Assembly: GCA_039802205.1 (NCBI GenBank)
Contig: JBDRWD010000016.1
Coordinates: 1-44,958, forward strand
DNA: 44,958 bases
Direction of reading: 5' to 3'
Source of the DNA: a candidate division WOR-3 bacterium
Lineage (GTDB): Bacteria > Hydrothermota > Tepidihabitantia > SM23-42 > JAOAFX01
The notes beneath the pieces were generated by a model. That model was not told the DNA's origin and did not search any database. It saw only the letters and a list, made by a program, of their open reading frames with translations. How positions within the stretch are numbered: position 1 is the stretch's first letter; each line of letters opens with the position of its first letter. This document shows positions 11,584 to 29,130 of the stretch, one piece after another. A program made the translations under genes and the position numbers.

Positions 11584-11789
11584 GGATTTAAAAAAATTTA
11601 TCCGCAGGCTAAAGCCTGCGCCTACCATTTTATCGGTTACCACCCAAGAATTTCAGGTTGGCATTTTTTATTTATGCAAGGCTAGAGTCTTGCCTTACAA
11701 AAATTCCAACGCTAAATCATTGATTACCCTTACAAATCTTGCCCATGAGTTTATTGTTCTTTCACAAGATAATGGAGAGGACTCAGACA
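11584..11789. repeat. Dispersed repeat copy B2, inverted relative to B1
   Basis: The reverse complement matches 134-328 over most of its length. It carries two palindromic cores: CGCAGGCTAAAGCCTGCG (11603-11620) and GCAAGGCTAGAGTCTTGC (11676-11693, one mismatch). A frame without ATG stays open across it from 11555 to 11863 and also overlaps the his promoter. Part of that frame (SNAKSLITLTNLA) is conserved in B1, but I regard this as repeat conservation and not as a gene. Confidence 0.75.
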
Positions 11790-11798
11790 TTTTACCTC

Positions 11799-11826
11799 TT
11801 GACGAAAAAGAATTTTTAGATATAAT
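11799..11826 (+). promoter_or_regulatory. Promoter of the his-trp-aro operon
   Basis: TTGACG (11799-11804), a 16-base spacer and TATAAT (11821-11826) match consensus at 11 of 12 positions. The -10 is followed by 6 bases and then the GTG start of the leader ORF at 11833. This is the same spacing as at other leaderless starts in the window. No other equally good promoter lies between here and hisG. Confidence 0.75.
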
Positions 11827-11832
11827 TCTTCC

Positions 11833-11913
11833 GTGGTTAAGATTTTGCAGCACATCGGAATAGATAACGATTGCCCAACTCGGGCAAAGGTCACTTCTTT
11901 AAATCTTAACCAC
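11833..11913 (+). promoter_or_regulatory. Long-range 13-bp helix in the operon leader RNA
   Basis: The first 13 bases of the predicted transcript, GTGGTTAAGATTT (11833-11845), are perfectly complementary to AAATCTTAACCAC (11901-11913). The start codon GTG pairs with the first control His codon (CAC, 11911-11913). A shorter alternative partner TTAACCAC occurs at 11933-11940 and ends with another control His codon. Inside the loop, TTGCCC and GGGCAA (11871-11886) form a 6-bp hairpin. A ribosome on the control codons would disrupt this helix. The pairing could also limit initiation to the first ribosome. Confidence 0.55.
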
Positions 11914-11970
11914 AACCACCCCACATTCTCCTTTAACCACTACTGGTATTGGCACTTCCGGGCCCAATAA
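11833..11970 (+). CDS. Leader peptide rich in His, Phe, Tyr and Trp (attenuator)
   Basis: A 45-codon ORF beginning with GTG at 11833 and ending with TAA at 11968-11970. Its GTG lies 6 bases after the operon's -10, so it is the first codon of a leaderless transcript. Residues 27-42 read HNHPTFSFNHYWYWHF: four His, three Phe, two Tyr and two Trp in 16 residues. The first 26 residues contain only one His and no aromatics. Downstream lie his, trp, tyr and common aromatic genes, so the codons match the pathway products. By analogy with E. coli his, trp and pheA leaders, ribosome stalling here should report shortage of the charged tRNAs. The ORF's last codons form the 5' arm of the terminator hairpin. 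This is sequence inference; no close homologue is known to me. Confidence 0.8.
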   Translation: MVKILQHIGIDNDCPTRAKVTSLNLNHNHPTFSFNHYWYWHFRAQ

Positions 11971-12012
11971 GGGTCATAATCCTTTTTGGTCCCGGAAGTG
12001 CCACATCTTTTT
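11951..12012 (+). terminator. Attenuator terminator hairpin before hisG
   Basis: GGCACTTCCGGGCCCAA (11951-11967) pairs with TTGGTCCCGGAAGTGCC (11986-12002) at 16 of 17 positions. The loop is 18 bases, and five T residues follow at 12008-12012. The 5' arm is the coding sequence for the last leader residues, including a His and a Phe codon, and the leader stop codon is the first triplet of the loop. A ribosome stalled on the nearby Tyr, Trp, His and Phe codons would physically cover the 5' arm and favour read-through. The alternative pairing of 11889-11897 with the 3' arm (8 bp, one bulge) could act as an antiterminator. The T tract starts 5 bases after the stem, so efficiency is uncertain. hisG follows 77 bases later. 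Confidence 0.7.
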
Positions 12013-12089
12013 CCCTCATAGACAACCCTAAATTCTAAAAAAGCAAAAAAAATAGAATTTAAGCTTTATGACAGAAAAAGGAGGTACGA

Positions 12090-12944
12090 TTGAAAAGATT
12101 GAAATTGGTCATCCCTAAGGGCAGCATCTTTGAGAATGTGGTGAGGCTCTTCTCTGATGCCGGCATTCAGATAAAAACCGATGAACGGATATATCGACCA
12201 TTTGTGAATGACCCGGAAATCCAGATAAAAATATTAAGACCCCAAAATATTCCGGACCTGATTGAAATCGGAGCCCACGATGCTGGCTTCACCGGCAAAG
12301 ATTGGGTGGTAGAATCGGCAGCAGAGGTTATTGAGGTGCTTGACTTAAAATTAGACCCGGTCCGGATTGTTGCAGCAATCCCCGAGGAAATGGATGTGAA
12401 GGTGTTACGCCGAAGAAAAATTATCGTCGCCTCCGAGTATGAAAGATTGACAAAAGAATTCCTGAGAAAAGAGGGATTTGAATATAAATTCCTCCGCACC
12501 TATGGGGCAACTGAAGTCTTCCCGCCCGAAGATGCTGATATGATCATTGATAATACCGCCACCGGCACGACGTTAAAGGAGCATAATTTAAAGATCTATA
12601 AAATACTCATGGATTCCACCACCCGGTTTATTGCATCCCGAAATGCCCTTAATGATCCCTGGAAGAAAAATAAAATTGAAGAATTGAAGATGCTCTTTCA
12701 GGCTGTCCTTGATGCGCGGGAACGGGTGATGTTGGAGATGAATGTGCCCAAGGAGAAGTTTGACCGGATTGTAAAAATTCTGCCTTGTATGCGCGCTCCC
12801 ACTGTGGCGCCGTTATATGGTGAAAAAGGATTCGCAGTGAAAGTGGCAGTGCGGAAGAATGAGGTAATAAAACTCATTCCCCAATTAAAGAGACTCGGGG
12901 CAACTGACATATTGGAATACGAATTCCGAAAGGTGGTAGTATGA
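12090..12944 (+). CDS. hisG: ATP phosphoribosyltransferase, long form
   Basis: First step of histidine synthesis: joins ATP and PRPP to phosphoribosyl-ATP, usually feedback-inhibited by histidine. At 284 residues this is the long HisG form. The two-lobe catalytic domain includes DMIIDNTATGTTLKEH, the PRPP-binding segment near residues 150-165. The C-terminal ~75 residues form an ACT-like regulatory domain (MRAPTVAPLYGEKGFAVKVAV), so HisZ is not needed. The start is TTG at 12090 with AAAGGAGGT just upstream; the nearby ATG at 12068 is out of frame. It overlaps hisC by 4 bases (ATGA). It is the first structural gene after the leader attenuator. Confidence 0.97.
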   Translation: MKRLKLVIPKGSIFENVVRLFSDAGIQIKTDERIYRPFVNDPEIQIKILRPQNIPDLIEIGAHDAGFTGKDWVVESAAEVIEVLDLKLDPVRIVAAIPEEMDVKVLRRRKIIVASEYERLTKEFLRKEGFEYKFLRTYGATEVFPPEDADMIIDNTATGTTLKEHNLKIYKILMDSTTRFIASRNALNDPWKKNKIEELKMLFQAVLDARERVMLEMNVPKEKFDRIVKILPCMRAPTVAPLYGEKGFAVKVAVRKNEVIKLIPQLKRLGATDILEYEFRKVVV

Positions 12945-13999
12945 TCAATCTCAAAAAAGTTATAATTAAGCTCCCCCCTTACGAAGTTCCGCAGGAGGCG
13001 TTGATAAAACTAAATCAGAACGAATCGCCTTATGATATACCCGAGGAATGCAAAAAAGAAATACTCGAGCAAATGGAAAGAGTCTCATGGAACCGTTATC
13101 CGCCTGAAGATCCCACGGATTTAATAAAGGCACTGGCTGATTATACACAGCATCCTCCAGAAGGGATTGTCATTGGTAACGGGTCTAATGAATTGATCCT
13201 TGCCAGTATGCTGGCAACCTGCAATAAGGGTGACAGTGTCACTGTGGTGCGACCAGGTTTTGCCCTCTATCCGTATCTTGCAAAAATTTTGCAGTTGAAA
13301 TTGCGTGAAGTGCGACTAAGAAAGGATTTTTCATTCAATATTGGTCGGCTGTTGCGAAATGCACACCAGTCCAAGGTCTTATATCTTGCAACTCCCAACA
13401 ATCCTACAGGAACGACGCTTGAGCTTGAACAAATAGCAAACCTTGCCAGTGTTAGACAGTGTATGATTGTAGTAGATGAAGCCTATTATGAATTCCATGG
13501 ACAAACCGCTCAGCGTTTAACTCTTAAATACCCTAATCTTTTGATTCTACGAACTTTTTCCAAAGCCTTTGGCCTCGCTGGCATTCGGCTGGGCTATCTC
13601 CTTGCCCACCCAGATGTGGCAAAACAGATCGTTAAGGCAAAACTACCTTTTTCGGTTGGCACATTTCCGATTCTGGTCGCGAGTTGCTTATTACACCGGA
13701 AAAATTTGATTGATGAAACGGTAAGAATGATAATATCAGAACGTACATTCCTCTTTGAAGGGTTAAAAAATATCCCGGGGATCAAACCGATTCCCTCTCG
13801 TGCCAATTTTATCTTGTTCGTACTCCAGGGACTTTCTGCAGATATGGTCTTCCGAAGATTGTATGAAAAAGGAATATTGGTCCGCAAATTCAGTCATCCT
13901 GAGTTAAAAAATATGCTCCGGGTTACCGTGGGCAGGCATGATGAAAATAGCACTTTTTTAGCCGAATTAGGCAAAATCATTGGAGGGTTGAATGCGTAA
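12941..13999 (+). CDS. hisC: Histidinol-phosphate aminotransferase
   Basis: PLP-dependent fold-type I aminotransferase making histidinol phosphate from imidazole acetol phosphate and glutamate. The protein has 352 residues. Visible are NQNESPY near the N-terminus, GNGSNELI, TPNNPTG, VVDEAYYEF, and the PLP lysine K208 in TFSKAFGLAGIRLGY. HisC family members can also transaminate aromatic keto acids. No separate aromatic aminotransferase lies in this operon, so a dual role for Tyr and Phe is possible but not shown. It overlaps hisG by 4 bases and hisB by 8. Confidence 0.95.
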   Translation: MINLKKVIIKLPPYEVPQEALIKLNQNESPYDIPEECKKEILEQMERVSWNRYPPEDPTDLIKALADYTQHPPEGIVIGNGSNELILASMLATCNKGDSVTVVRPGFALYPYLAKILQLKLREVRLRKDFSFNIGRLLRNAHQSKVLYLATPNNPTGTTLELEQIANLASVRQCMIVVDEAYYEFHGQTAQRLTLKYPNLLILRTFSKAFGLAGIRLGYLLAHPDVAKQIVKAKLPFSVGTFPILVASCLLHRKNLIDETVRMIISERTFLFEGLKNIPGIKPIPSRANFILFVLQGLSADMVFRRLYEKGILVRKFSHPELKNMLRVTVGRHDENSTFLAELGKIIGGLNA

Positions 14000-14573
14000 A
14001 TCCCAAATAAAAAGAAAGACTCGCGAAACCCAAATCGTTCTGAAGTTAACGATCGAGGGCAAAGGTCGGTATGATATCACTTCTCCGATTGGCTTTTTGA
14101 CGCACATGCTGGAAACGATAAGTCAGCACAGTGGATTTGACATCATAGCCCAGATAAATGGTAATTCACATGTGGACCAACACCATATTGTAGAAGATAC
14201 CGGCTTGTGTCTGGGGCTTGCCTTGAGCGAAGCACTGGGGAATAAAAAGGGGATCAGGCGTGCAGGCTTCTTTATCCATCCGATGGATGAAGCCTTGGCA
14301 TTAGTGGCATTGGATCTTTCGGGCAGGAGTTTTTTAAGGTTTGCGGCAAATTTCCGTAATAAAAAGCTTGGCGATTTTGAAGTGGATACCACCGAAGACT
14401 TCTTTGCAGGCTTTGTAACCGGTTGTCCCTGTTCTCTCCATATTGAATTGCTCTCGGGAAGGTCTGACCACCATAAGATTGAAGCCATCTTTAAGGCATT
14501 CGCCCGGGCACTAAAGGGTGCATGTACAAAAGGAAACATCCGGGCAGTGCCCAGCACAAAGGGGATTTTATGA
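13992..14573 (+). CDS. hisB: Imidazoleglycerol-phosphate dehydratase
   Basis: Monofunctional HisB dehydratase of 193 residues, converting imidazole glycerol phosphate to imidazole acetol phosphate. Duplicated metal-binding histidine motifs are visible: HHIVEDTG in the first half and SDHHKIEAIFKA in the second, with FLTHMLETISQHSGFD near the N-terminus. It has no histidinol-phosphatase domain, unlike E. coli HisB, so that step must be encoded elsewhere. It overlaps hisC by 8 bases, with GGAGGG just upstream, and overlaps hisH by 4 bases (ATGA). Confidence 0.97.
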   Translation: MRKSQIKRKTRETQIVLKLTIEGKGRYDITSPIGFLTHMLETISQHSGFDIIAQINGNSHVDQHHIVEDTGLCLGLALSEALGNKKGIRRAGFFIHPMDEALALVALDLSGRSFLRFAANFRNKKLGDFEVDTTEDFFAGFVTGCPCSLHIELLSGRSDHHKIEAIFKAFARALKGACTKGNIRAVPSTKGIL

Positions 14574-15169
14574 TCGGAATCATTGATTATGGTGCGGGAA
14601 ATCTGCACTCGGTTAAAAATGCCCTTGAGTATCTCGGATTCCCAACTCGTTTTATCAAAAAGCCTGGTGCTATCAAATCCGCTGATAGAATCATCCTCCC
14701 AGGGGTGGGTGCTTTCGGCTTCGCGGTTGAACGATTAAAAACTTCAGGACTCTTTGATGCCCTCAATGATTATCTCCTTGCCAACCGACCATTTCTGGGG
14801 ATCTGTCTGGGAATGCAATTGTTGTTTGAGTCGAGCGAAGAGTCGCCGGGAGTAAAAGGCTTTGGTATCCTGCCGGGTCGCATCAAAAGATTTCAAAACT
14901 ATAAAATCCCCCAGATCGGTTGGAACCGGGTTAAAGTGATAAGAAAATCAAATATCATCGATGCTGCCAGAGAAGAGCCTTTCTTCTACTTTCTCCATAG
15001 CTATTATGTTACAACTCACCGAAATGAATCGATTGTGGGCATTACTGAATACGGAATAGCGTATCCTTCAATCATCGCCAGCGGGAATATTTATGGAGTC
15101 CAGTTTCATCCCGAAAAGAGCGGTGAAGAAGGTTTAAGGCTATTAAAAAACTGGGTGATAAGATGCTGA
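14570..15169 (+). CDS. hisH: Imidazole glycerol phosphate synthase, glutaminase subunit
   Basis: Class I glutamine amidotransferase of 199 residues that feeds ammonia to HisF. The N-terminus [16 protein letters not shown] is typical. The nucleophile cysteine is in [11 protein letters not shown] and the catalytic His-Glu in [10 protein letters not shown] start at ATG 14570, which overlaps the hisB stop as ATGA and follows AAAGGGGA; an upstream in-frame start at 14522 would lie deep inside hisB. It overlaps hisF by 7 bases, keeping the two subunits of one enzyme coupled. Confidence 0.97.
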
Positions 15170-15918
15170 CCATAAGAATCATTCCCTGTCTCGATGTGGA
15201 TAAAGGAAAAGTTGTGAAAGGAAGACAATTTATGGATTTAAAATACGCCGGAGATCCTGTAGACCTTGCTAAGTATTACAATGATCTTGGTGCCGATGAG
15301 TTAATCTTTCTTGATGTGACCGCCTCGGTTGAAAAGAGAAAAACGATGCTCAGGGTTGTAGAAAAGGTGGCAAAGAATGTATTCATACCATTCTGCGTCG
15401 GTGGTGGGATAAGAACTGTGGAGGATATGCGAAATCTACTCCATGCCGGAGCAGATAAGATTGCGATATGCACCGCCGCACTAAGAAACCCTGATTTGAT
15501 AAAAATGGGCGCAGAATTATTCGGTTCCCAGTGTATCGTCGTTTCCATCGATGCCAAGAGGGCCAAAAAAACCTGGCATTGCTTTACCCATGGCGGCCGG
15601 ATCGATTCCGGTTGGGACGCCATAAAATGGGCAAGGTTATGCGCACATCTTGGTGCCGGTGAAATTCTATTAAACTCTATAGATCGGGATGGTACCCAAT
15701 TGGGCTATGATATTGAATTAACAAGGTCGATAAGTTCTCAGATAAAAATCCCGGTGATCGCCTCCGGAGGTGCGGGTAATTTGACCCAGATCTATCAGGT
15801 TATAAAATATGGCAAGGCTGATGCCGTGCTTCTCGCCTCGGCACTCCATTACAAAAAACTCACTATCCAGAGGATAAAAAGTTATTTAAAAAGAAAGGGG
15901 GTAAGTGTAAGATGGTGA
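15163..15918 (+). CDS. hisF: Imidazole glycerol phosphate synthase, cyclase subunit
   Basis: A (beta/alpha)8 barrel of 251 residues that uses HisH-derived ammonia to close the imidazole ring and release AICAR. The catalytic aspartates are in [14 protein letters not shown] at the N-terminus and VVSIDAKR mid-protein. [13 protein letters not shown] and VIASGGAG are the phosphate-binding segments. It overlaps hisH by 7 bases and the hisAI fusion by 7. Confidence 0.98.
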
Positions 15919-16910
15919 TTCCTTCGATTGATCTGATGGGTAAAAGAGTAGTTCAGTTAAGACAGGGGAAGAAAAAGATCCTTGAGTATGATGACCCTTT
16001 CTCCCTTGCGCGTAATTTCCACCGCTATAATGAGATTGCAATTATTGATCTGGATGCTGCCCTGGGAAGGGGAGAGAACATGGAACTCATTGAAGATTTG
16101 CTTAAGATTGCGGATTGCCGCGTGGGCGGTGGTATCCGGACGATAATGAAAGCAAAAAAACTTATTGCGCAGGGTGCCCACAAAATCATCATCGGGTCTC
16201 AGGTATTCAAAAATAGAGAAATAAATCATGAATTTCTTAATGAACTGAAAAAAGAAATTGGACCGGAACGAATAGTCATTGCCCTTGATACCTTTAAAAA
16301 TGAAATTGTGATCAATGGGTGGCAAAAGAAAACAGGTATTCAGCTGTTTGATGTCTTAAAAGAATTGGAGGCATACACAAACGAATTCCTCTGTACTTTT
16401 GTAGAACGGGAAGGAACAATGGAAGGTATTGACCTGAACTCGATAAAAGAGCTGCGAAAAAGAACGGATAAAAAGATTGTGGTCGCGGGTGGTGTGGCGA
16501 CGCTTGAGGAGATAAAGATCCTTGCCCGCCTGGAGATTGATGTGCAATTGGGCATGGCACTCTATACCGGTAAAATCTCCCTGACCGATGCCTTTATTGA
16601 ATCATTGAATTGGAAAGAAGAACTCATACCCACCATTACTCAGGATACATCAGGGGCTGTTCTGATGCTCGCTTATTCCAATCGGGATTCCTTAAAAAAG
16701 ACATTGGAGACGAATCGAATGTGGTATTTTTCAAGAAGCCGGCAGAAATTGTGGTTTAAGGGCGAAACCTCAGGGAATATCCAAGAATTGATTAAACTGA
16801 GGATGGACTGCGACCGGGATGCGCTGCTTGCTGTGGTCCGGCAACGAGGTTCTGCCTGTCATAACGGTGATTTTTCTTGTTTTAAAACCTGGAGGTATCA
16901 TGAACAATAA
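15912..16910 (+). CDS. hisAI: HisA-HisI fusion: ProFAR isomerase plus phosphoribosyl-AMP cyclohydrolase
   Basis: One 332-residue frame joins two enzymes. Residues 1-~230 are a HisA (beta/alpha)8 barrel with catalytic D7 (PSIDLMG) and D126 (VIALDTF), plus VGGGIRT and VAGGVAT phosphate sites. Residues ~234-332 are a HisI cyclohydrolase: GETSGNIQ (284-291), DCDRDA (299-304) and ACHNGDFSCF (315-324). Cysteines 300, 316 and 323 keep the 16- and 7-residue spacing of the HisI zinc site. HisI opens the adenine ring of PR-AMP and HisA isomerises its product, so the fusion links consecutive steps. HisI is more often fused to HisE; no HisE domain is present here. It overlaps trpD by 11 bases. Confidence 0.95.
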   Translation: MVIPSIDLMGKRVVQLRQGKKKILEYDDPFSLARNFHRYNEIAIIDLDAALGRGENMELIEDLLKIADCRVGGGIRTIMKAKKLIAQGAHKIIIGSQVFKNREINHEFLNELKKEIGPERIVIALDTFKNEIVINGWQKKTGIQLFDVLKELEAYTNEFLCTFVEREGTMEGIDLNSIKELRKRTDKKIVVAGGVATLEEIKILARLEIDVQLGMALYTGKISLTDAFIESLNWKEELIPTITQDTSGAVLMLAYSNRDSLKKTLETNRMWYFSRSRQKLWFKGETSGNIQELIKLRMDCDRDALLAVVRQRGSACHNGDFSCFKTWRYHEQ

Positions 16911-17949
16911 AGGAGACACAAAAATATCTGAGGCGCTGAAAAAGGTGGTTGAGAATGTATCACTAAGCAGTGATGAGGCTTATGCGGTCGCTCTTGAAAT
17001 CATGGATGGAGATGCTACACCGGCTCAACTTGGCGCCCTCATCACTGCCTTGAGGATGAAAGGCGAAACCGTAGAAGAAATCACGGGTTTCTGCCAGGCA
17101 CTTCGCGCCAGGATGGTGGTATTAGAATGTCCAATTGAAAGACTGATTGATACCTGTGGAACGGGTGGCGACGCCACCCGGACATTCAACATCTCCACGA
17201 CTGCAGCATTTATCGCGGCTGGTGCAGGCTGTTTTGTGGCAAAACATGGTAACCGTTCGGTCTCCAGCCTTTGTGGGAGTGCGGATTTGTTTACATCTTT
17301 AGCATTGGACCCAGAGATGGAATACCATCTTATCAAGAGATGCATTGAAAAAATTGGGATTGGTTTTCTTTACGCCCCGAAATTCCATCCGGCGATGAAG
17401 AATGTCGCTCAAACGAGACGCGAAATCGGTATCCGAACGATATTCAACATTCTCGGTCCACTCTGCAATCCCGCCCAAGTCAAATACCAGGTGATCGGCG
17501 TTTGTAAAAAAGAATTGCTTGATAAGATTGCCAAGGTCCTGGTAAATCTCGGGACCAAACATGCCCTTGTGGTTCATGGACAAGACGGAATGGATGAATT
17601 AACACTCACCACCGGCAGTTATGTATGGGAAGTAGTGGACCAGCAGATTGTGACCTATGAAGTCAACCCTGAAGACTTTGGCCTCAAAAAATGCTCGCTG
17701 GATGAGCTGCAGGTAAAAAATCTTCAGGATAATCGGGATGCCTTCTTAGAAGTTTTAAATGGTGCCTCTGGACCCAAGACCGATATTGCAATACTGAATG
17801 CCGCTGCTGCAATCTATGTTGCTGGAAAGTCAAAAACATTAAAAGAAGGTGTGGCCATAGCCCGGGAAGTTGTATATTCCGGGGCTGCATGGGATAAATT
17901 CAATGAATTAAGGACGTTTATCGATGGATATGTTAAGAAAGATAGTTGA
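16900..17949 (+). CDS. trpD: Anthranilate phosphoribosyltransferase
   Basis: Second step of the tryptophan branch: PRPP plus anthranilate to phosphoribosyl anthranilate. The protein has 349 residues. The helical N-terminal domain leads into the PRPP-binding GTGGDATRTFNIST, KHGNRSVSS, and the metal-binding DGMDELTLT. I start at ATG 16900, preceded by GGAGGT; an upstream in-frame start at 16819 would lie deep in hisAI. There is no fused TrpG glutaminase, and trpE and trpG are absent from the operon. This gene marks the switch from his to trp genes without a break. Confidence 0.97.
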   Translation: MNNKGDTKISEALKKVVENVSLSSDEAYAVALEIMDGDATPAQLGALITALRMKGETVEEITGFCQALRARMVVLECPIERLIDTCGTGGDATRTFNISTTAAFIAAGAGCFVAKHGNRSVSSLCGSADLFTSLALDPEMEYHLIKRCIEKIGIGFLYAPKFHPAMKNVAQTRREIGIRTIFNILGPLCNPAQVKYQVIGVCKKELLDKIAKVLVNLGTKHALVVHGQDGMDELTLTTGSYVWEVVDQQIVTYEVNPEDFGLKKCSLDELQVKNLQDNRDAFLEVLNGASGPKTDIAILNAAAAIYVAGKSKTLKEGVAIAREVVYSGAAWDKFNELRTFIDGYVKKDS

Positions 17950-18697
17950 TCATACTAAAGAGACAATAGCCCTGCGGAAGCGGGTTAAACCCATAACAGA
18001 ATTGACGATCACCAATTCTGAACATCCGCAGGACTTCAAAATTATCTTTAAAGAAGATACCATTGCCCTGATTGCCGAGATTAAAAAGGCATCGCCTTCA
18101 CACGGAATCATCAAAAGAGATTTAGACCCGGTGCAACTCGGATTGATATACGAAACGTCAGGAGCCGAGGCGATATCAGTGGTAACCAATGAAGCATTCT
18201 TTGGGGGAAAGTGTGAATACATCACCGAATTGAAAAAGGTGTCAAAACTACCCTTGCTGCGCAAGGACTTTATTCTGGATGAGTATCAAATTTATGAAAG
18301 CCGTGCTGCAGGTGCGGATGGAGTGCTACTTATCGCCCGCATCCTCGATGAGCAAGAACTAAAAAGAATGGTAAAACTTGTCAAAAAATTGGGCATGACC
18401 CCCATTGTAGAAGTCCATAGTCGGGAAGACATTCATAAGGCATTAGCCACCGAGACGGAGATAATCGGCATCAATAATCGGAATCTGGATAATTTTCAAG
18501 TCGATATTGCTATATCGCTCTTCTTGAAACCCTACATCCCATCTGGATATTACATTTTAAGTGAGAGCGGGATAAAAAATAAAGAAGAGGTAAAGAAATT
18601 ACAGGAGGCAGGTTTTGATGGTATCCTTGTGGGCACAGCAATTTTGATGGCTAACGATATCAAGAAAAAAATTGCGGAGTTAAAATGGAGAGATTGA
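17924..18697 (+). CDS. trpC: Indole-3-glycerol phosphate synthase
   Basis: A (beta/alpha)8 barrel of 257 residues that decarboxylates and closes carboxyphenylamino-deoxyribulose phosphate to indole-3-glycerol phosphate. Key stretches are IAEIKKASPSHGIIK (catalytic lysine and substrate phosphate region), LLRKDFILDEYQIYE with a catalytic lysine, GINNRNLDNFQVD, and SESGIKNKEEV. It is monofunctional; trpF is separate, two genes on. ATG 17924 has AAGGA 9 bases upstream; a second ATG two codons later is less well placed. It overlaps trpD by 26 bases and tyrA by 13. Confidence 0.97.
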   Translation: MDMLRKIVDHTKETIALRKRVKPITELTITNSEHPQDFKIIFKEDTIALIAEIKKASPSHGIIKRDLDPVQLGLIYETSGAEAISVVTNEAFFGGKCEYITELKKVSKLPLLRKDFILDEYQIYESRAAGADGVLLIARILDEQELKRMVKLVKKLGMTPIVEVHSREDIHKALATETEIIGINNRNLDNFQVDIAISLFLKPYIPSGYYILSESGIKNKEEVKKLQEAGFDGILVGTAILMANDIKKKIAELKWRD

Positions 18698-19773
18698 AAA
18701 AACTGCGCAGAAGCATCAAAAATATTGATTGCCAATTACTGGATTTAATCAAAAAAAGGATGGAAATCAGTAAGGAAGTGGGTCGTTTGAAAAAACAGGC
18801 TGGCATTCCTTTGCGTGATTGGAGTGTGGAGAAAGATGTGATTGCGCATGCAATAAACTACGCCCAAAAGCAGAGATTGGATACCTCTTTCATCAAAAGT
18901 CTCATCACCAAGATAATTGAACATTCCAGATTCCAGCAGGAATGTCTCCATTATTCTGGCTACCGTGGAAAGAAAGAAAACATTCTGATCATCGGCGGCC
19001 TCGGTGCTATGGGCCGTTGGTTTGCCTATTTCTTTCAGAATCAAGGACATCATGTTGAAATCCAGGATATAAAACCATCCGGGCTAAAGGATTTTAAATA
19101 TCACCAGGATATAAAGTCTGCCCTGAATAAAAAATCAATCGCCCTCATCGCCACACCCCTAAGTATCATCCCCACCATCATCCGGGAACTCATGGATTTG
19201 AACTACACGGGGATCATCGTGGATATTGCGAGTGTGAAAAGTCATATCCTTCCGGTAGTAAAAGAGGCAAAAGAAAATGGGTTGAAAATCACCAGTATCC
19301 ACCCGATGTTTGGTCCTTCCTGTCATACCCTTAACGATAAAGTGATCTGTCTCTGTGATTGTGGCTGCCCTGAGGCGAACAAAAAGATTGTGGAATTCTT
19401 CCGTGACACCGCGGTCCAGCTTATCAGTCTTTCCTTTGAAGACCACGACCGCTTGATCGCTTATGTCTTGGGACTCTCCCATTTTGTGAACATCTTTTTC
19501 GTCAAAAATCTCCTGGATAGTGGTTACAGTTTTAAAGAATTGATGCGGGTCGCAAGCACCACTTTTAATGCCCAGATGACAACGAGCAAAAGTGTCATCA
19601 ATGAAAATCCCGAACTCTATTTCGAAATCCAATTTCTCAATCCTTACCGTGAGGAATTATACAACCTTTTACAGAGAAGTCTCCAATTTTTGATCACACT
19701 CATCGAACAGAACAAAAAAGACGATTTTATCAAACTCTTTGTCCAAGGGAGAGGCTATCTTGATGAATACTAA
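18685..19773 (+). CDS. tyrA: Chorismate mutase-prephenate dehydrogenase (bifunctional TyrA)
   Basis: A 362-residue fusion. Residues 1-~90 are an AroQ-type helical chorismate mutase (LRRSIKNIDCQLLDLIKKRMEI, then K-R-rich helices). From ~98 comes a prephenate dehydrogenase with Rossmann motif IIGGLGAMGRWFA and the active-site stretch SIHPMFGPS. It turns chorismate through prephenate to 4-hydroxyphenylpyruvate, the tyrosine precursor. The architecture matches E. coli TyrA. No prephenate dehydratase (PheA) is in the operon, so phenylalanine must be finished elsewhere. It overlaps trpC by 13 bases and trpF by 11. Confidence 0.93.
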   Translation: MERLKKLRRSIKNIDCQLLDLIKKRMEISKEVGRLKKQAGIPLRDWSVEKDVIAHAINYAQKQRLDTSFIKSLITKIIEHSRFQQECLHYSGYRGKKENILIIGGLGAMGRWFAYFFQNQGHHVEIQDIKPSGLKDFKYHQDIKSALNKKSIALIATPLSIIPTIIRELMDLNYTGIIVDIASVKSHILPVVKEAKENGLKITSIHPMFGPSCHTLNDKVICLCDCGCPEANKKIVEFFRDTAVQLISLSFEDHDRLIAYVLGLSHFVNIFFVKNLLDSGYSFKELMRVASTTFNAQMTTSKSVINENPELYFEIQFLNPYREELYNLLQRSLQFLITLIEQNKKDDFIKLFVQGRGYLDEY

Positions 19774-20371
19774 GGTCAAAATCTGTGGCATTACTAATCT
19801 CAAAGATGCACTCCTTGCGGTAGAATCTGGAGCTGATGCACTTGGTTTCATCTTCGCTCCCTCGCCGCGCAGAATTACACCGAGACAGGCACGCCACATT
19901 ATTAAACACTTGCCCCCCTTCATCAGTGCGGTAGGAGTTTTTATGGATACCCCTCTTCCGGTCCTCCGTCAGATCATTGAGATCAGCGGCATCGATACCA
20001 TTCAACTCCACGGTCATGAACCACCAGAATATTGTTCCCAGATTAAAAAACTAAGGATAATCAAGCGCATAATGATCAATCCGGATTCCCAGATAAAAGA
20101 GTTAATCAAAGAAATGGCAAGGTACCGGGTATCTGCTTACCTCTTTGATCCCGGCGCCGGGAGCGGCAAAATTTTTGATTGGCAAATGATCAAAGGCTTA
20201 CCAGGAAGGATAATCATCGCCGGAGGTTTAACCCCTGATAATGTCTGTGAGGCGATAGCATTGCTCAAACCTTACGGTGTGGATGTCTGTTCCGGGGTTG
20301 AGAATTCCATCGGTAAAAAGGATCCAGAAAAATTAAAGGCATTCATAAGGGAGGTGCGGAGATGTATTTAA
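19763..20371 (+). CDS. trpF: Phosphoribosylanthranilate isomerase
   Basis: A (beta/alpha)8 barrel of 202 residues performing the Amadori rearrangement of phosphoribosyl anthranilate. The N-terminal KICGITNLKDAL carries the catalytic cysteine, and DPGAGSGKIFDW and GGLTPDNV carry the catalytic aspartate and phosphate site. ATG 19763 follows a GGGAGAGG stretch; the upstream in-frame start at 19739 lies inside tyrA without a better site. It overlaps tyrA by 11 bases and aroE by 10. Its place between tyrA and aroE shows the trp genes are scattered among aro genes here. Confidence 0.96.
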   Translation: MNTKVKICGITNLKDALLAVESGADALGFIFAPSPRRITPRQARHIIKHLPPFISAVGVFMDTPLPVLRQIIEISGIDTIQLHGHEPPEYCSQIKKLRIIKRIMINPDSQIKELIKEMARYRVSAYLFDPGAGSGKIFDWQMIKGLPGRIIIAGGLTPDNVCEAIALLKPYGVDVCSGVENSIGKKDPEKLKAFIREVRRCI

Positions 20372-21141
20372 CAGGTGTGATCGGCTATCCCCTCAAAAAT
20401 ACGCTCTCGCCCCTTATCCATAATCAGGCATTTAAGGCCCTGGGCTTAGAAGGTAGTTATTACCCATTGGTTGTTCCCGAGGATGACTTCGGGCTGATTA
20501 TCCACATACTGAAAAAACTACGCTTTTGCGGATTTAATCTTACCAATCCCTATAAAATTGAAATTCTTAAATATCTTGAAGGGATCAGCCCCCTCGCACA
20601 GGATATCGGCGCAGTAAATGTGGTTAAGATCAGGAATCATCAGATGTATGGATTTAATACGGATGTTTTGGGTTTTATCCAATCCATCAAAGCACATAGA
20701 CTCAACCTCACCAGAAAAAAAATTCTCATCATCGGTGCCGGGGGTGTTGCTCGGGCTGTCGGGTATGCTGTAGCCCATGCAAGACCCGCGGCTTTATTTA
20801 TCGCAAACCGGACAGAAGAAAAGGCATACGCCCTTGCCCAGCGTTATGGTGGGAAAACGATACCATTTGAAGCGGTTTCAGAGATAATAAAGGAGATAGA
20901 TTTGGTGATAAATGCTACATCCGTGGATATCCAATCTTGGCTCATCTCTCATTTGAAAAAAGGAAGCATATTTTATGATACAAATTACTGCTTTCCAAGT
21001 ATCCCAACAAAGCAGGTCAAAACCATTAATGGGTTGGAGATGCTGATCTATCAAGCTGCACACTCCTTCAGCATTTGGACGGGAAAAAGGCCTCCTTTAA
21101 AGGTGATGAAAGAGGCAATAAAGGGAGGACTAAATGATTAG
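20362..21141 (+). CDS. aroE: Shikimate dehydrogenase
   Basis: NADP-dependent reduction of 3-dehydroshikimate to shikimate. The protein has 259 residues. Substrate-binding residues lie in GYPLKNTLSPLIHN, NLTNPYK (catalytic lysine) and FNTDVLGF (catalytic aspartate). The nucleotide site is IIGAGGVARAV, followed by IANRTEEKA. It overlaps trpF by 10 bases and aroC by 8. Confidence 0.96.
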   Translation: MYLTGVIGYPLKNTLSPLIHNQAFKALGLEGSYYPLVVPEDDFGLIIHILKKLRFCGFNLTNPYKIEILKYLEGISPLAQDIGAVNVVKIRNHQMYGFNTDVLGFIQSIKAHRLNLTRKKILIIGAGGVARAVGYAVAHARPAALFIANRTEEKAYALAQRYGGKTIPFEAVSEIIKEIDLVINATSVDIQSWLISHLKKGSIFYDTNYCFPSIPTKQVKTINGLEMLIYQAAHSFSIWTGKRPPLKVMKEAIKGGLND

Positions 21142-22198
21142 AATTCTCACCGCGGGTGAATCCCATGGCCCAGGGATCTTGGTAATAATCGATGGGTTAC
21201 CCGCTGGAATAAAAATGGATCTCAATTTTATAAATCATGAACTGAAGCGGCGCCGATCTGGCACGGGTCGGAGCAAACGGATGAAACAGGAAAAGGACAA
21301 GGTAGTGCTCCTGGCAGGAGTCCGTAGAGGCAGGACGATCGGGGCACCGATTGCGTTTTTTATAAAGAATGTGGACTATCGAAAGGAGGAATTTTCTGGG
21401 GGTTCCAGAATAACAAAGACGCTCATACCCCGACCCGGTCATGCTGACCTCCCGGGTCTTTTAAAGTTTGGTTTTGAAGATATCCAAGATGTTAGCGAAC
21501 GGGCTTCAGCCCGGGAGACTGTAGCAAGGGTCGCGGCGGGCGCGGCATGCAAATTGTTCCTGAAGGAATTCAGGATTAAAATCGGTTCCCATGTCTTATC
21601 CATAGGTCCAGCAAAAGATAAAAGAGAAATAACAGGATTGATAAAGTATGCCCGGGAATTAGGTGATACGCTCGGCGGGGTAATTGAAATTTATGCGGAT
21701 AATGTATGTCCAGGATTGGGAAGTTATACCCATTTTGATAAAAGACTTGATGGCCTCATTGGGATGGCAATGCTCTCCATCCCTTCGGTAAAAGGGATAG
21801 AGATCGGCGAAGCGATAAAAAGCACTCAATCCTTTGGTTCCGCGATCCATGATACCATCTTCTACAGCCGCCAAAAAGGATTTTACCGGAAAACAAATCA
21901 CGCCGGTGGGATTGAAGGAGGAATGAGTAATGGTGAACGAATCGTGGTTAGGCTCTATGCAAAACCGATACCAACTCTCCAAAAACCACTAAATTCGGTT
22001 CATCTCCAGACCAAATATCCAACTCCTGCCCCTACCCCGCGGGCTGATGTCTGTGTGGTAGAGGCTATCGGTGTCATCGGCGAGGCAATGCTCGCTTATG
22101 TTCTCACCACTGTTCTGCTAGAGAAATTCGGAAGCGATGCACTTGCGGATATAAAAAGAGGTTATCAGGAATATCTGAAGCGGGTAAAAAATGGTTGA
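21134..22198 (+). CDS. aroC: Chorismate synthase
   Basis: FMN-dependent enzyme making chorismate from EPSP, the branch point for Trp, Tyr and Phe. The protein has 354 residues. Family signatures are GESHGPGI at the N-terminus, RPGHADLPGLLKF, the central DVSERASARETVARVAAGA, and GGIEGGMSNGERI. It overlaps aroE and the aroKB fusion by 8 bases each. The EPSP synthase gene aroA, which makes its substrate, is not in this window. Confidence 0.98.
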   Translation: MIRILTAGESHGPGILVIIDGLPAGIKMDLNFINHELKRRRSGTGRSKRMKQEKDKVVLLAGVRRGRTIGAPIAFFIKNVDYRKEEFSGGSRITKTLIPRPGHADLPGLLKFGFEDIQDVSERASARETVARVAAGAACKLFLKEFRIKIGSHVLSIGPAKDKREITGLIKYARELGDTLGGVIEIYADNVCPGLGSYTHFDKRLDGLIGMAMLSIPSVKGIEIGEAIKSTQSFGSAIHDTIFYSRQKGFYRKTNHAGGIEGGMSNGERIVVRLYAKPIPTLQKPLNSVHLQTKYPTPAPTPRADVCVVEAIGVIGEAMLAYVLTTVLLEKFGSDALADIKRGYQEYLKRVKNG

Positions 22199-23741
22199 AA
22201 ATATCGTCCTCATTGGATTCATGGGCACCGGTAAGGATACAATCGGACGGGTCCTTGCCGAGAAGTTGAATATGGGATTTCTCTCAACCGACCAGATGAT
22301 TGAATTCTCCGAACAGCGCTCCATAAAAGAAATCTTTGCGCATAAGGGGGAAACCCATTTTCGAAAAATTGAGAAAAGAGTTATCAACCAGATTGCCGCG
22401 CTGAAAAATTGTATCATTGCAACCGGCGGCGGCGTAGTGCTCGATCCTGAAAATCGGCGGCGCTTAAAAAAGATGGGGATTGTAGTCCACCTCAGCACGA
22501 ATCTCGATGTCTTAAAAAAAAGAATTGCTTCAAGTGGCAACCGCCCATTGATCAAAAAAGTCTCCGATATAAAAAAATTATACCAGGAGCGTCAGGGGAT
22601 GTATGATTTTGCGGACATCAGAATTGAAACTACTGATAAAGAACCCGAAGTGGTGGTTCAAGAAATCATTGATAAGTTAAACCTGAAGAAATTGTTGCTC
22701 CCTTTCAAGGCAAAAAGAATATATGTGGAGGCCCGGAGCAGAAATTATCCGGTTTTGATCGGCTTTGATCTTCTAAATCATGTAGCTCTCTCCGGACGTC
22801 GAGCCTTAATAATCACCAATCCGCTCGTAGGTACCCTTTATCTGAATGAATTGCTCTCGCACCTGATCGCAAAAGGAAATCAGGTTGAGTATCTCATCAT
22901 TCCGGATGGAGAAAGATATAAAAATCTCCAAACTGTCCGATTTATTTACAATCGTCTTTTCGCCCTGAATTTCACCCGTCAGGACTTTATAATCAGTCTT
23001 GGTGGGGGAGTGATCAATGATCTCGCTGGTTTTGTCGCCTCCACCTTCAAGCGGGGATGCCATCTCATCCACATCCCTACCACCCTTCTCGCCCAAATTG
23101 ATGCAGCAATCGGTGGGAAGACCGGAATTAATTCCAGCTACGGTAAGAATATGTTGGGTACATTCTACCAGCCTGATCTCGTGCTATGCGACATCAAGAA
23201 ACTATTGACCCTGCCCCAGCAGGAATTTCTCAATGGCATTGCCGAGGCGATCAAATACGGAGTAGTGTGTTCATTTGACCTTTTTCAGATACTACAAAAT
23301 GAAATAGCATCAATCAAAAAACGTGATCCCCAAGTACTTTTTGAGATTGTTAAAAGATGTGTGGAGATTAAAGCCGCAATCGTCAAAAAAGACGAGACTG
23401 AGGAGAAAGACCTGAGGTTGATTTTAAACTTTGGTCATACGATCGGGCATATAGTCGAAGTGTTAACCAATTATAAAAGATATTCACACGGTGCAGCGGT
23501 GGCGATGGGAATGGTGGAGGAGATGCGAATGCTGAGTAGAAATAGAAAAGACCAGGCACGGGTCGTAAATCTCTTAAAAGCTTATAATCTGCCCAGCAGT
23601 CTTCCTGAGGGGCTGAAAAATAATATAAAAGATTTTATCCTTCAAGATAAAAAGGTTATCGGAGGATGTATAAAAATACCCGTGCTGATACGGATTGGGC
23701 AGGTAATGGTGAAGGAGGTATCATGCAAAAGATTTTGTTGA
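22191..23741 (+). CDS. aroKB: Shikimate kinase-3-dehydroquinate synthase fusion (AroK-AroB)
   Basis: A 516-residue fusion. Residues 1-~165 are shikimate kinase: P-loop FMGTGKDTIGR, shikimate-binding TDQMIE, HFRKIEKRV and ATGGGVV, and lid NRPLIK. The residue after the P-loop lysine is D16, not the usual Ser/Thr that binds magnesium. Residues ~175-516 are 3-dehydroquinate synthase: IPDGERYKN, SLGGGVINDLAGFVAS, PTTLLAQIDAAIGGKTGIN, and zinc ligands in EAIKYG, LNFGHTIGHIVE and YSHGAAVAMG. AroB acts at step 2 and AroK at step 5, so they are not consecutive; Thermotoga has a similar fusion. It overlaps aroQ by 19 bases. Confidence 0.95.
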   Translation: MVENIVLIGFMGTGKDTIGRVLAEKLNMGFLSTDQMIEFSEQRSIKEIFAHKGETHFRKIEKRVINQIAALKNCIIATGGGVVLDPENRRRLKKMGIVVHLSTNLDVLKKRIASSGNRPLIKKVSDIKKLYQERQGMYDFADIRIETTDKEPEVVVQEIIDKLNLKKLLLPFKAKRIYVEARSRNYPVLIGFDLLNHVALSGRRALIITNPLVGTLYLNELLSHLIAKGNQVEYLIIPDGERYKNLQTVRFIYNRLFALNFTRQDFIISLGGGVINDLAGFVASTFKRGCHLIHIPTTLLAQIDAAIGGKTGINSSYGKNMLGTFYQPDLVLCDIKKLLTLPQQEFLNGIAEAIKYGVVCSFDLFQILQNEIASIKKRDPQVLFEIVKRCVEIKAAIVKKDETEEKDLRLILNFGHTIGHIVEVLTNYKRYSHGAAVAMGMVEEMRMLSRNRKDQARVVNLLKAYNLPSSLPEGLKNNIKDFILQDKKVIGGCIKIPVLIRIGQVMVKEVSCKRFC

Positions 23742-24172
23742 TCCATGGTCCAAATTTAAATCTTTTGGGGAGGAGGGAACAAAAAATATATGGCAATCTT
23801 ACTCTTGAGGCTATCAATCAGCGCATTATTGAATATGCCAAGAAAAGAAATGTGCAGGTTGATATCTACCAATCCAATTGTGAAGGAGAAATAGTAGAGT
23901 TGATTCATCGGGCAAAAGATTACGCGGGGTTGGTGATAAATCCTGGTGCTTATACCCATACCTCAGTGGCAATAAGGGACGCGATTGAGGCAATAAACAT
24001 TCCGACTGTGGAAGTTCATATCAGCAATATCTATGCGCGGGAACCTTTCCGGCATAAAAGTCTGGTGGCACCGGTTTGTTCCGGTCAGATTACCGGACTC
24101 TCCTGGTATGGATATATCCTGGCATTGGAATATTTTATACAATCTGGGGGTGAATATGTATCGTCTACCTGA
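23723..24172 (+). CDS. aroQ: 3-Dehydroquinate dehydratase, type II
   Basis: Dodecameric type II dehydroquinase dehydrating 3-dehydroquinate to 3-dehydroshikimate. The protein has 149 residues, the normal size. It shows [15 protein letters not shown] with the catalytic tyrosine Y23 in [29 protein letters not shown], and the catalytic histidine in EVHISN. I start at ATG 23723 with GGAGGT 4 bases upstream; the in-frame start at 23666 lies well inside aroKB. It overlaps trpB by 17 bases. Confidence 0.97.
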
Positions 24173-25334
24173 TAAAAATGGTTATTTTGGAAAATTTGGA
24201 GGGCGCTTCATCCCTGAAACATTGATGCCCGCATTATTGGAAATCGAAGATGCCTATCGGCAGTTAAAAGAAGAAAAAAAATTTCAAGATGAACTTAATT
24301 CTTATCTACGCAATTATGCAGGCAGACCCACGCCGCTATACTTTGCGCACAATCTTTCCGAACGCCTAAACGGAGCAAAGATTTTCCTTAAGCGTGAGGA
24401 TTTGCTCCATACCGGTGCCCATAAGATTAACAATACTCTGGCACAGGTGCTCCTCGCCAAAAAGATAGGCAAAAAGAGAATCATTGCCGAGACTGGTGCC
24501 GGGCAACATGGCGTGGCTACCGCCACCGCATGCGCGGCCTTGGGGCTTGAATGTGTCATTTATATGGGCAAAAAGGACATGAATAGACAGCAGACCAATG
24601 TGAAAAAGATGAAACTGCTCGGTGCTGAGGTGCGGATGGTTGATTCGGGAACCCAGACCCTAAAAGATGCGATTAATGAGGCATTGAGGGATTGGGTCAC
24701 GAATGTGAACACGACATATTATTGTCTCGGCTCTGTCGTAGGTCCCCATCCCTATCCGATGATGATCCGAGATTTTCAATCGGTAATCGGCAGGGAAACA
24801 AAAAAACAAATCCTGGAAATAACCGGAAGATTGCCTCAATTGCTCGTGGCATGTGTGGGTGGGGGGAGCAATGCCATTGGTTTTTTTTATCCTTTTCTCG
24901 ATACCAAGGTAAAAATGCTCGGAGTAGAAGCAGGCGGTTTAGGACTTCATACCCAAAAACATTCCTCCACGCTCTCCCGGGGACGCATTGGAGTTCTTCA
25001 CGGTGCGATGAGTCTCGTCCTTCAAACCAATGATGGACAGATAATGCCTACCCATTCAATCGCTCCGGGTCTTGACTACCCCGGTGTTGGACCAGAGCAT
25101 GCTTATCTTAAGACATGCGGTCGGGTGCAGTATACATATTGTAAAGATCAGGACGCTGTCCGGGCATTCAAAATACTTGCTGAAAGCGAAGGCATCATTC
25201 CCGCCCTCGAAAGTGCCCATGCATTAGCCATCGGTATGAAGGAGGCAAAAAAGATGGGGAAAGACAAAATTGTTATCATCAATCTCTCCGGACGGGGTGA
25301 TAAAGACTTAGAATTGGTGGAGACAAGATTATGA
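24156..25334 (+). CDS. trpB: Tryptophan synthase beta chain
   Basis: PLP enzyme that condenses indole with serine to tryptophan, working with TrpA. The protein has 392 residues when started at ATG 24156 (GGGGGTGA upstream); a longer reading from 24033 overlaps most of aroQ. Visible are [14 protein letters not shown], the PLP lysine K90 in [37 protein letters not shown], and the C-terminal [10 protein letters not shown]. It is of the TrpB1 type that pairs with TrpA. It overlaps trpA by 4 bases (ATGA). Confidence 0.98.
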
Positions 25335-26101
25335 GTAAAATTTCCGAAGTTTTTGAAAGTCTTTCAAAAAAGAATGAAGCAGCACTGATCACCTACCTCA
25401 CCGCTGGTTATCCAACACTCGATGCTTCACTCAACTATATCAAAACCCTTGCCCAATACTCTGATATGATAGAAATCGGCGTTCCCTTCTCGGATCCGAT
25501 CGCCGATGGTAAAACCATCCAATTCTCCTCGCAGATTGCCCTCAAAAGTGGTGTCAACCTTGTTGAAATACTCAAACGGGTTGCAGGACTTGATATCAAA
25601 AAACCCATCATCCTTTTATCTTATCTCAATCCCTTAATCGCCCTGGGGATTGAAGAATCTTTTCGTAAGATGCAAAAGGCAAGAATTGCAGGGTTGATCG
25701 TTCCTGACCTGGTCATTGAAGAGTCAGAATTGCTGAAGGAGTTGGCTTTAAAATATTCAATCGATCTAATCCACTTGGTCGCCCCTACCTCGGATAAAAA
25801 AAGGATAAAATTGATCGGCGAGGCCACGAAGGGGTTTATCTATTGCGTTTCGGTTACAGGCACAACTGGGGTAAGAAAAAAGCTACCCTATAAATTACTT
25901 TCATTTATAAGTTTGGTAAAATCAATTGTTCAAAAACCTGTGGCAGTTGGTTTTGGCATCTCGCATCCTGGTCAGATAAAAAAATTGAGTAAAGTCGCCG
26001 ATGGGATAATAATCGGCAGCCGGATTATTGAAATCATAAGAAATCGCGAAGATTTAAATTTTCATCTTAAAAGATTTAAGCAGGCAACCATGCGTGGATG
26101 A
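25331..26101 (+). CDS. trpA: Tryptophan synthase alpha chain
   Basis: A (beta/alpha)8 barrel of 256 residues that cleaves indole-3-glycerol phosphate to indole and passes it to TrpB. The catalytic glutamate and aspartate are in [15 protein letters not shown]. Further family stretches are [26 protein letters not shown] and [12 protein letters not shown]. It overlaps trpB by 4 bases. A gap of 34 bases, the largest inside the operon, separates it from aroF. Confidence 0.97.
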
Positions 26102-26135
26102 GCAAAGATTGTTTTTATCAACAAAAGGAGGTTTT

Positions 26136-27146
26136 ATGCTGGTCGTGATGCATAAAGATGCTACTGAAGAGCAAATAAAAAAAGTTTGCGCAATAGTAAG
26201 AGAGATGGGGCTAACCCCTCATCCGATAAAAGGTGCCCAGCGGGTGGCGATTGGTATTACCGGGAATAAGGAGATGGTCGACACCCGCAGGATTGAAAAT
26301 CTTGAGGGAGTTATAAATATCATCCATGTCACCCAACCCTATAAATTGACAAGCCGGGAGATGAAACCCGACGATACAAAGATAAAAATTAACGATGTTT
26401 TAATCGGGGACAAGAAGCCGGTGATAATCGCCGGACCTTGTGCAGTAGAATCAGAAGAACAGATGTTTGAAATCGCCCGGACAGTAAAGAAACTTGGTGC
26501 AGATATGTTACGCGGTGGTGCCTTCAAACCGCGAACCTCTCCTTATTCCTTCCAGGGGCTGGGTGAAGCAGGTTTGAAAATCTTACGCCAGGTAGCAAAT
26601 AAGGTCAACCTGCCGGTGGTATCGGAGGCGATTGATACCGAAGTATTCTCCCTTCTGGAAGAATATGTTGATGTCATCCAGATTGGCGCCCGCAACATGC
26701 AGAACTATGCATTATTAAAACGAGCAGGCAAGAGCAAAAAGCCGATACTCTTAAAGCGCGGCATGGCTTCCACAATTCAGGAGTTTCTCTTAGCGGCTGA
26801 ATATATCATGGCAGAAGGAAATTATCAAGTCATCCTCTGCGAACGGGGTATAAGGACCTTCAGCGATTTTACAAGGTTCACCCTTGATATAAGCAGCATT
26901 CCTGAACTAAAAAGGATATCCCACCTTCCGGTCATTGCCGACCCGAGTCATGCCTCGGGAAAAAGGGATATGGTATTGCCGCTGGCGCGGGCAGCAGTCG
27001 CAGCCGGTGCGGACGGGATAATGGTTGAAGTGCATAACAATCCGGAAAAGGCGCTTTCCGATGGACCGCAATCTCTCACCCTTGAAGATTTTGCTACATT
27101 CATGAGTGAACTACAAGCAATGGCAAAAATTCTTAAGAGATTGTAA
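26136..27146 (+). CDS. aroF: DAHP synthase, type I-beta with ferredoxin-like regulatory domain
   Basis: First step of aromatic synthesis: phosphoenolpyruvate plus erythrose-4-phosphate to DAHP. The protein has 336 residues. The N-terminal ~70 residues (VVMHKDATEEQIKKV, AIGITGN) form the ferredoxin-like domain that mediates Phe/Tyr feedback in the Thermotoga enzyme. The barrel follows with AGPCAVESEEQM, LRGGAFKPRTSPYSFQG, ILLKRGM, CERGIRTF and DPSHASGKR. I start at ATG 26136 with AAAGGAGGT; the reading from 26094 has no such site. It is the last gene of the operon, so pathway entry and end lie in one message. No clear terminator follows; a new promoter begins at 27157. Confidence 0.97.
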   Translation: MLVVMHKDATEEQIKKVCAIVREMGLTPHPIKGAQRVAIGITGNKEMVDTRRIENLEGVINIIHVTQPYKLTSREMKPDDTKIKINDVLIGDKKPVIIAGPCAVESEEQMFEIARTVKKLGADMLRGGAFKPRTSPYSFQGLGEAGLKILRQVANKVNLPVVSEAIDTEVFSLLEEYVDVIQIGARNMQNYALLKRAGKSKKPILLKRGMASTIQEFLLAAEYIMAEGNYQVILCERGIRTFSDFTRFTLDISSIPELKRISHLPVIADPSHASGKRDMVLPLARAAVAAGADGIMVEVHNNPEKALSDGPQSLTLEDFATFMSELQAMAKILKRL

Positions 27147-29101: not shown

Positions 29102-29126
29102 CATAAGTTTTATTTTTGGATATAAT
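29098..29126 (+). promoter_or_regulatory. Consensus promoter of the cobalamin uptake operon
   Basis: TTGACA (29098-29103), 17 bases and TATAAT (29121-29126): all 12 positions match. The -35 overlaps the ubiB stop codon. Transcription should begin near 29133, just at the 5' side of the riboswitch. Confidence 0.85.
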
Positions 29127-29130
29127 CTCC

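Follow-up and report, generated by a model that had tools for sequence, protein, structure and literature searches.

The window, by which we mean the whole stretch of 44,958 nucleotides analysed here, comes from a bacterium of candidate phylum WOR-3 and carries an operon for histidine and aromatic amino acids in which hisG is followed by 16 more his, trp, tyr and aro genes; NCBIfam matches confirmed this gene content, which the sequence-only reading had proposed. Two pairs of its genes are fused, namely hisA with hisI (window 15912-16910) and aroK with aroB (window 22191-23741). Between the promoter and hisG lie a short leader ORF and two RNA hairpins, which we refer to as P1 and P2. The features are as follows:

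11799..11826, + strand: promoter, with a -35 box TTGACG (11799-11804), a 16-nt spacer and a -10 box TATAAT (11821-11826); 11/12 match, with an identical 28-nt layout in 6/6 genus copies
11833, + strand: predicted transcription start, the first base of GTG, from the spacing of GTG after the -10 box
11833..11970, + strand: leader ORF, from translation; frame and length (45/46 codons) kept in six copies, with one 3-nt indel in aro2
11833..11845, + strand: 5' arm of P1, GUGGUUAAGAUUU, start codon included, from folding
11901..11913, + strand: 3' arm of P1, AAAUCUUAACCAC, ending in the His27 codon, from folding
11911..11958, + strand: control codons within residues 27-42 (H27 H29 F32 F34 H36 Y37 W38 Y39 W40 H41 F42)
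11914..11950, + strand: linker between P1 and P2, 37 nt, G-poor and mostly unpaired
11941..11958, + strand: codons Y37 W38 Y39 W40 H41 F42, where a stalled ribosome would cover the base of P2, from constrained folding
11950..12003, + strand: P2 hairpin (nt 118-171), 23 pairs in blocks of 13, 4 and 6, with the leader stop codon inside, from folding
12008..12012, + strand: T-run, 5 nt past the P2 stem, a candidate 3' end or pause region
12080..12084, + strand: Shine-Dalgarno sequence of hisG, GGAGG, from the sequence
12090..27146, + strand: operon of 17 genes, hisG-hisC-hisB-hisH-hisF-hisA/I-trpD-trpC-tyrA(CM)-trpF-aroE-aroC-aroK/B-aroQ-trpB-trpA-aroF1, from NCBIfam

Further downstream, a cobalamin riboswitch (window 29108-29319, 61.6 bits) precedes an ORF of 567 aa (29352-31055) with no NCBIfam match.

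The leader ORF translates to VVKILQHIGIDNDCPTRAKVTSLNLNHNHPTFSFNHYWYWHFRAQ, 45 codons followed by a TAA stop (11968-11970). Its residues 27-42 contain four His, three Phe, two Tyr and two Trp, so the translation bears out both the ORF and the amino acid content first read from it, and the 11/12 promoter placed upstream of it is likewise present as TTGACG-16-TATAAT. We searched 1.25 Mb of the window's genome (G000) in six frames for windows of 16 codons in which H, F, Y and W each occur at least twice, and found eight such places, two of which are this leader and a paralogue. The composition alone is rare, yet not unique. Among the leaderless-type short ORFs listed for the same 1.25 Mb, the only his/aromatic leaders were again these two, and no further leaderless leader there was convincing, one candidate (L160:3377) being located before a trkA-like gene. 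Rfam covariance models, including those of T-boxes and amino acid leaders, gave no match to the leader at the gathering score, and the hits that appeared up to E = 10 were irrelevant. A dispersed repeat of about 87 bp, present in about 40 copies in the genome, is represented in part at window 11700-11787 (and at 162-234) and ends just upstream of the leader promoter; as it is separate from the leader, we rejected the idea that the leader is itself a dispersed repeat.

The paralogous leader (G000:C24) shares 81% identity with the one in the window and heads aroF2-pheA-aroA-trpE-trpG-hisD, which supply most of the steps absent from the window's operon. Two relatives in the genus (G001 and G002) each have both leader copies, with a second operon identical in gene content, and our comparison within the genus was based on six copies in three genomes, one his and one aro copy each. 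Exact matches to the conserved leader core in GTDB records came only from candidate division WOR-3 bacterium SKW300. Similarly arranged leaders, rich in H, F, Y and W, are also located before hisG in G025 and G024, which belong to another family with the same gene order, and in G126, from a further family of the phylum. These leaders end in FVYFFNYFWHPGHCLGCH (G025), NHFEHHYWYWRFRT (G024) and YYVYPYIFYYSWWHKNKNTSEFTA (G126), and the motif HYWYWxFR is common to the genus leaders and G024.

In all six genus copies, the GTG is found exactly 7 nt past the -10 box and coincides with the predicted transcription start, a feature missed in the earlier reading. This spacing suggests that the leader mRNA is probably leaderless, with a transcript that starts at the GTG itself. 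The leaders of G024, G025, G004 and G126 have ATG at the same distance, and a GTG or ATG at +7 was found in all ten related leaders. We also scanned 1.25 Mb of G000 for the distance between the start codons of ORFs of at least 120 codons and a strong -10 box. ATG was found 6, 7 and 8 nt past the box in 32, 32 and 19 ORFs, compared with about 3 at most other distances, and GTG in 12, 6 and 2 ORFs, compared with about 1.5 elsewhere. Leaderless gene starts at ATG or GTG are very common and a general trait of this genome, and GUG-initiated leaderless translation has been reported to be efficient in some bacteria (PMC9031893). A transcription start downstream of 12002 is unlikely, given the conservation of the promoter box and of its precise spacing.

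The leader RNA folds with -68.9 kcal/mol, compared with -39.4 kcal/mol for shuffled sequences (z = -7.65). At its 5' end is P1, a perfect 13-bp hairpin that had been overlooked, in which nt 1-13 pair with nt 69-81 and bury the GTG. As GUGGUU pairs with AACCAC in this stem, the structure itself fixes His27, at least in part, and two of the four His codons are located within (H27) or beside (H29) the 3' arm. The stem also forms in other copies, where in aro1 a U-A pair is replaced by A-U and by G-C, and aro2 pairs GUGAU with AUCAC in another register. In nine leaders, the linker between P1 and P2 measures 30-38 nt, contains 3-17% G and is mostly unpaired. P2 had been described as a hairpin of 16/17 pairs followed by a T tract; the hairpin is real and its 5' arm does lie within the ORF, but it is longer than described, and the T-run at 12008-12012 is not adjacent to its stem. 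The T-run is 5-7 nt past the P2 stem in the his copies and is absent in aro1 and his24, while the GC hairpins at convergent gene ends of G000 have a T-run at the stem end in 9 of 11 cases. Because the T-run is displaced or missing, unlike in the genome's own terminators, P2 in this locus does not resemble a standard terminator. Termination of transcription at P2, which the sequence-only reading had assumed, could not be established: P2 lacks the adjacent U-tract of an intrinsic terminator, and no canonical terminator was seen between the promoter and hisG.

In the six genus copies, the stem of P2 and the greater part of its loop do not vary, and covariation within the genus is not significant because there is almost no variation to evaluate. 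Compensatory changes appear only on comparison with the other family. In G024, the outer stem starts as in the genus while the inner stem has changed and is still paired (AACC with GGGUU), and in G025 an unrelated stem occupies the place equivalent to P2. As to the proposed check for conservation in relatives, the start, the H/F/Y/W segment and the frame pass it in six copies from three genomes and in diverged leaders of other families; the few compensatory changes within the genus do not reach significance. A weak helix between the 3' arm of P2 and the T-run that follows it (GGAAG with CUUCC or UUUCC) was rejected, as it reaches about -4 kcal/mol at best and is not conserved.

To relate the position of a ribosome to these structures, we used constrained folding with a ribosome footprint imposed codon by codon. 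The formation of P2 fell from about 1 to 0 as the ribosome moved from codon 36 to codons 37-38 (A site), at equivalent codons in all six genus copies, and stayed near 1 wherever the ribosome left the base of P2 free. It is at this switch point that the cluster Y37 W38 Y39 W40 H41 F42 begins, in which each of the four amino acids is represented at least once. With the footprint at each codon, no helix that competes with P2 was found, and thus no antiterminator. The switch point is Y31 in G024 and N33 in G025, both beside the aromatic cluster, and just after the cluster in G126. This adjacency supports direct blocking of the hairpin by a stalled ribosome. In the folds, blocking of P2 is confined to codons 37-46, which leaves the His and Phe codons in 27-36 unexplained; this region is too far upstream for P2 blocking, yet it is rich in control amino acids in every leader. 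The earlier proposal of a stalled ribosome that blocks the hairpin without a 2:3 antiterminator thus holds in fold calculations for codons 37-46 and not for codons 27-36. A precedent for such blocking is the pyrBI attenuator of E. coli, in which no antiterminator is involved and the hairpin is blocked directly by a ribosome that closely follows the polymerase. The blocking would be alike in the two systems, but pyrBI senses UTP via polymerase pausing rather than amino acids.

Taken together, we consider it likely that the locus works by ribosome-mediated attenuation, with a leaderless leader peptide that senses His, Phe, Tyr and Trp, and one stalled ribosome probably reports a shortage of any of the four. 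The view that, in front of a combined his-aromatic operon, the leader codons report histidine and the three aromatic amino acids gains support from the six copies in three genomes and from the leaders in other families. In the proposed mechanism, a 70S ribosome would start at the GUG at the extreme 5' end of the transcript and read the 45-codon ORF, the last third of which consists of His, Phe, Tyr and Trp codons. When the four charged tRNAs are plentiful, the ribosome would run through and leave. Behind it, P1 would re-form and hide the start codon, so that each leader may be read only once, and P2 would then form as the presumed OFF state and curtail transcription into the operon. If any of the four were short, the ribosome would be expected to stall on the control codons, and with a stall on Y37-F42 its leading edge would rest on the base of P2, so that P2 would not form and the RNA polymerase would read into the operon. 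We are least sure of how a stall at codons 27-36 would act and of how P2 stops transcription, which could be by weak intrinsic termination or by pausing with Rho.

The second of these possibilities can be developed into a Rho-dependent mechanism, which we regard as somewhat unlikely. Here P2 would act as a pause hairpin and the bare linker would load Rho, and a ribosome stalled anywhere on codons 27-42 would keep Rho off. Once a normal reading is over, P1 would hide the start codon and leave the linker bare, and Rho would stop the paused polymerase. Such a mechanism accounts for the poor T-runs, the missing antiterminator, the placement of P1 over the start codon and the spread of the control codons over their full range, and the broad codon span and P1 are better explained by it than by direct blocking. 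Rho is encoded, and the length, low G content and unpaired state of the linker in the nine leaders would suit its loading. With the observed spacing from P2 to the T-run, the RNA 3' end would be some 10-12 nt away from the hairpin, as in hairpin-type pauses, and tnaC provides a case in which a stalled ribosome blocks Rho. Against it, Rho sites are usually longer than this linker, the linkers of G024, G025 and G004 are not rich in C, and codons for His, Phe and Tyr are G-poor anyway. A mode resembling Rho blocking has also been raised for cys leaders (PMC1262725).

Another alternative, which we regard as improbable, is control after transcription, with P2 marking the mRNA for cleavage or decay or gating the first gene, and the position of the ribosome deciding whether P2 exists. 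The invariance of P2 in the six copies, which goes beyond the needs of pairing, and the stretch from promoter to hisG without a canonical terminator would both fit this view. However, the Shine-Dalgarno sequence of hisG is located 77 nt past P2, we found no conserved helix that involves it, and transcription is the usual level of control for amino acid operons of this type. Blocking of the Shine-Dalgarno sequence was likewise rejected, having been seen in the MFE structure of the G025 leader only.

The link between the codons and the products of the operon is clearest in G004, a genome that is 99% complete and has neither hisG nor TrpD above the cut-off. Its operon, tyrA-aroE-aroC-aroKB-aroQ-aroF-pheA-aroA, retains an orthologous leader that reads FVYFFNFIGHPGH where that of G025 reads FVYFFNYFWHPGH; the Trp codon is gone, Phe and Tyr are kept, and His codons are still present only inside the P2 hairpin. 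The loss of the Trp codon in a genome without hisG and trpD is strong evidence for codon-based sensing, although this is one clear case of control codons that track the biosynthetic content of an operon. A weak trpF-like stretch (L071:13561-13803, minus strand, 34% identity) is located between tyrA and aroE in G004 and is possibly a remnant of lost trp genes.

Within the genus, the ORF stays in frame in all six copies and has 45 codons, except in aro2, where a 3-nt indel accounts for a length of 46. In their N-terminal halves most copies show no relation to one another, but all retain FxFNHYWYW(H/R)FRAQ followed by the stop. The last 22 codons of the three his copies show 7 synonymous and 7 nonsynonymous differing codon pairs, and the control codons before P2 in the aro copies show 23 nonsynonymous and 3 synonymous differences, most of them nonsynonymous because HNH has been lost in aro1 and aro2; the first count speaks for the proposed attenuator and the second against it. 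The strictly conserved C-terminus FNHYWYW(H/R)FRAQ, part of which (HYWYWxFR) recurs in G024, could point to a sequence-specific arrest peptide of the TnaC type that senses free amino acids, but we consider this very improbable, as other leaders keep composition and not sequence or spacing (FVYFFNYFWHPGHCLGCH, YYVYPYIFYYSWWH and RFYFTRFYYYP), residues fixed at a fixed spacing are confined to the genus and, in part, G024, and codon content follows gene content in G004. That the ORF is a chance by-product of constraint on a structured RNA, as the strong P1 and P2 overlapping both of its ends and the fixing of H27 by pairing with GUG might suggest, is hardly credible given that frame and length are kept in 6/6 copies despite the unrelated middle and the in-frame 3-nt indel, and that the ORFs of other families encode the same amino acids at an equal distance from the promoter on different RNA sequences.

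Returning to the ribosome-mediated attenuator, we can tentatively offer a fuller picture, which we hold with less than even confidence. This would be a multi-input and probably single-reading device without a classical terminator and antiterminator, in which P1 hides the start again after the first ribosome. That ribosome would sample four charged tRNAs in the 37-nt window between the two hairpins, and its presence would decide whether the polymerase continues. The device would govern a regulon of 23 genes and would have been copied when an ancestral single operon was split. The stretch from hisG to at least trpA is a single run of genes in G025 and G126, and in G126 this run goes on to aroF, pheA and aroA; G024 has the gene order of G025, split over two contigs, and in G022 aroF1, aroF2 and pheA are adjacent. 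The simplest history that we infer is that one long operon was split between aroF1 and aroF2 in this genus, with the leader copied onto the second half. The two leaders of G000 (window 11833-11913 and L002:200-280) share an inner hairpin (TGCCCAACTCGGGCA / TGCCCGACCCAGGCA) and HNH, which the aro copies of the relatives lack or have in another form, and may have been homogenised by gene conversion.

The classical attenuators of enterobacteria (trp, his, pheA, thr and ilv; PMC1183508) likewise consist of a short leader ORF with codons for the product, hairpins downstream and then the biosynthetic operon. The leader described here differs in that it combines four amino acids from two pathways, has a leaderless start and exists in two copies for two operons, and also in that it has no 2:3 antiterminator, a stop codon inside the hairpin and a weak or displaced T-run. 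Leaderless short ORFs at the 5' end of operon mRNAs have been described in mycobacteria, where poly-cysteine codons slow the ribosome (Canestrari et al. 2020, as cited in PMC9031893; loci in PMC4633059); these ORFs involve Cys only, compared with four amino acids here. Aligned cys leaders show no conserved hairpins (PMC1262725), unlike the leaders of this study. In actinobacterial ilvB leaders, the Ile, Val and Leu codons overlap a candidate terminator hairpin, much as the control codons do here, and the authors leave the mode open (PMC1262725), but those leaders have a poly-U after the hairpin, concern branched-chain amino acids and belong to another phylum. In the literature that we searched, the coverage of which is incomplete, no leader combining His with Phe, Tyr and Trp is described. 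What would be new here is a form of ribosome-mediated attenuation that reads four amino acids, starts leaderless and employs its leader twice. If correct, it would be a single leader for His and all three aromatic amino acids that joins leaderless translation to attenuation, would place attenuation in a candidate phylum outside the papers found, and would be a tangible example of attenuation in which no antiterminator is evident. The duplication of the leader after an operon split, together with the loss of a Trp codon alongside trp genes, makes the link between codon and product testable from genomes alone.

Related leaders may be present elsewhere in our set of genomes. The DAHP-synthase operons of family f19 have a short leader with Phe and Tyr only, RFYFTRFYYYP. 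Upstream of DAHP synthase in G083 (L087) and G084 (L091), a short Phe/Tyr-rich leader (MGSVRFYFTRFYYYPLIERG) and a hairpin are followed by a stronger hairpin with a U-rich tail, and the 3' side of the first hairpin can pair with the second; these f19 leaders may represent a classical three-hairpin attenuator. No acetolactate synthase (ilv) leaders of the same leaderless type were found, as G000 has no real large subunit and G126 and G127 have only short leadered ORFs. These ORFs, MGVELGILN in G127 (L117) and MLGVESGIIS in G126 (L118), are rich in Val, Leu and Ile, are located upstream of acetolactate synthase and are possible ilv leader peptides.
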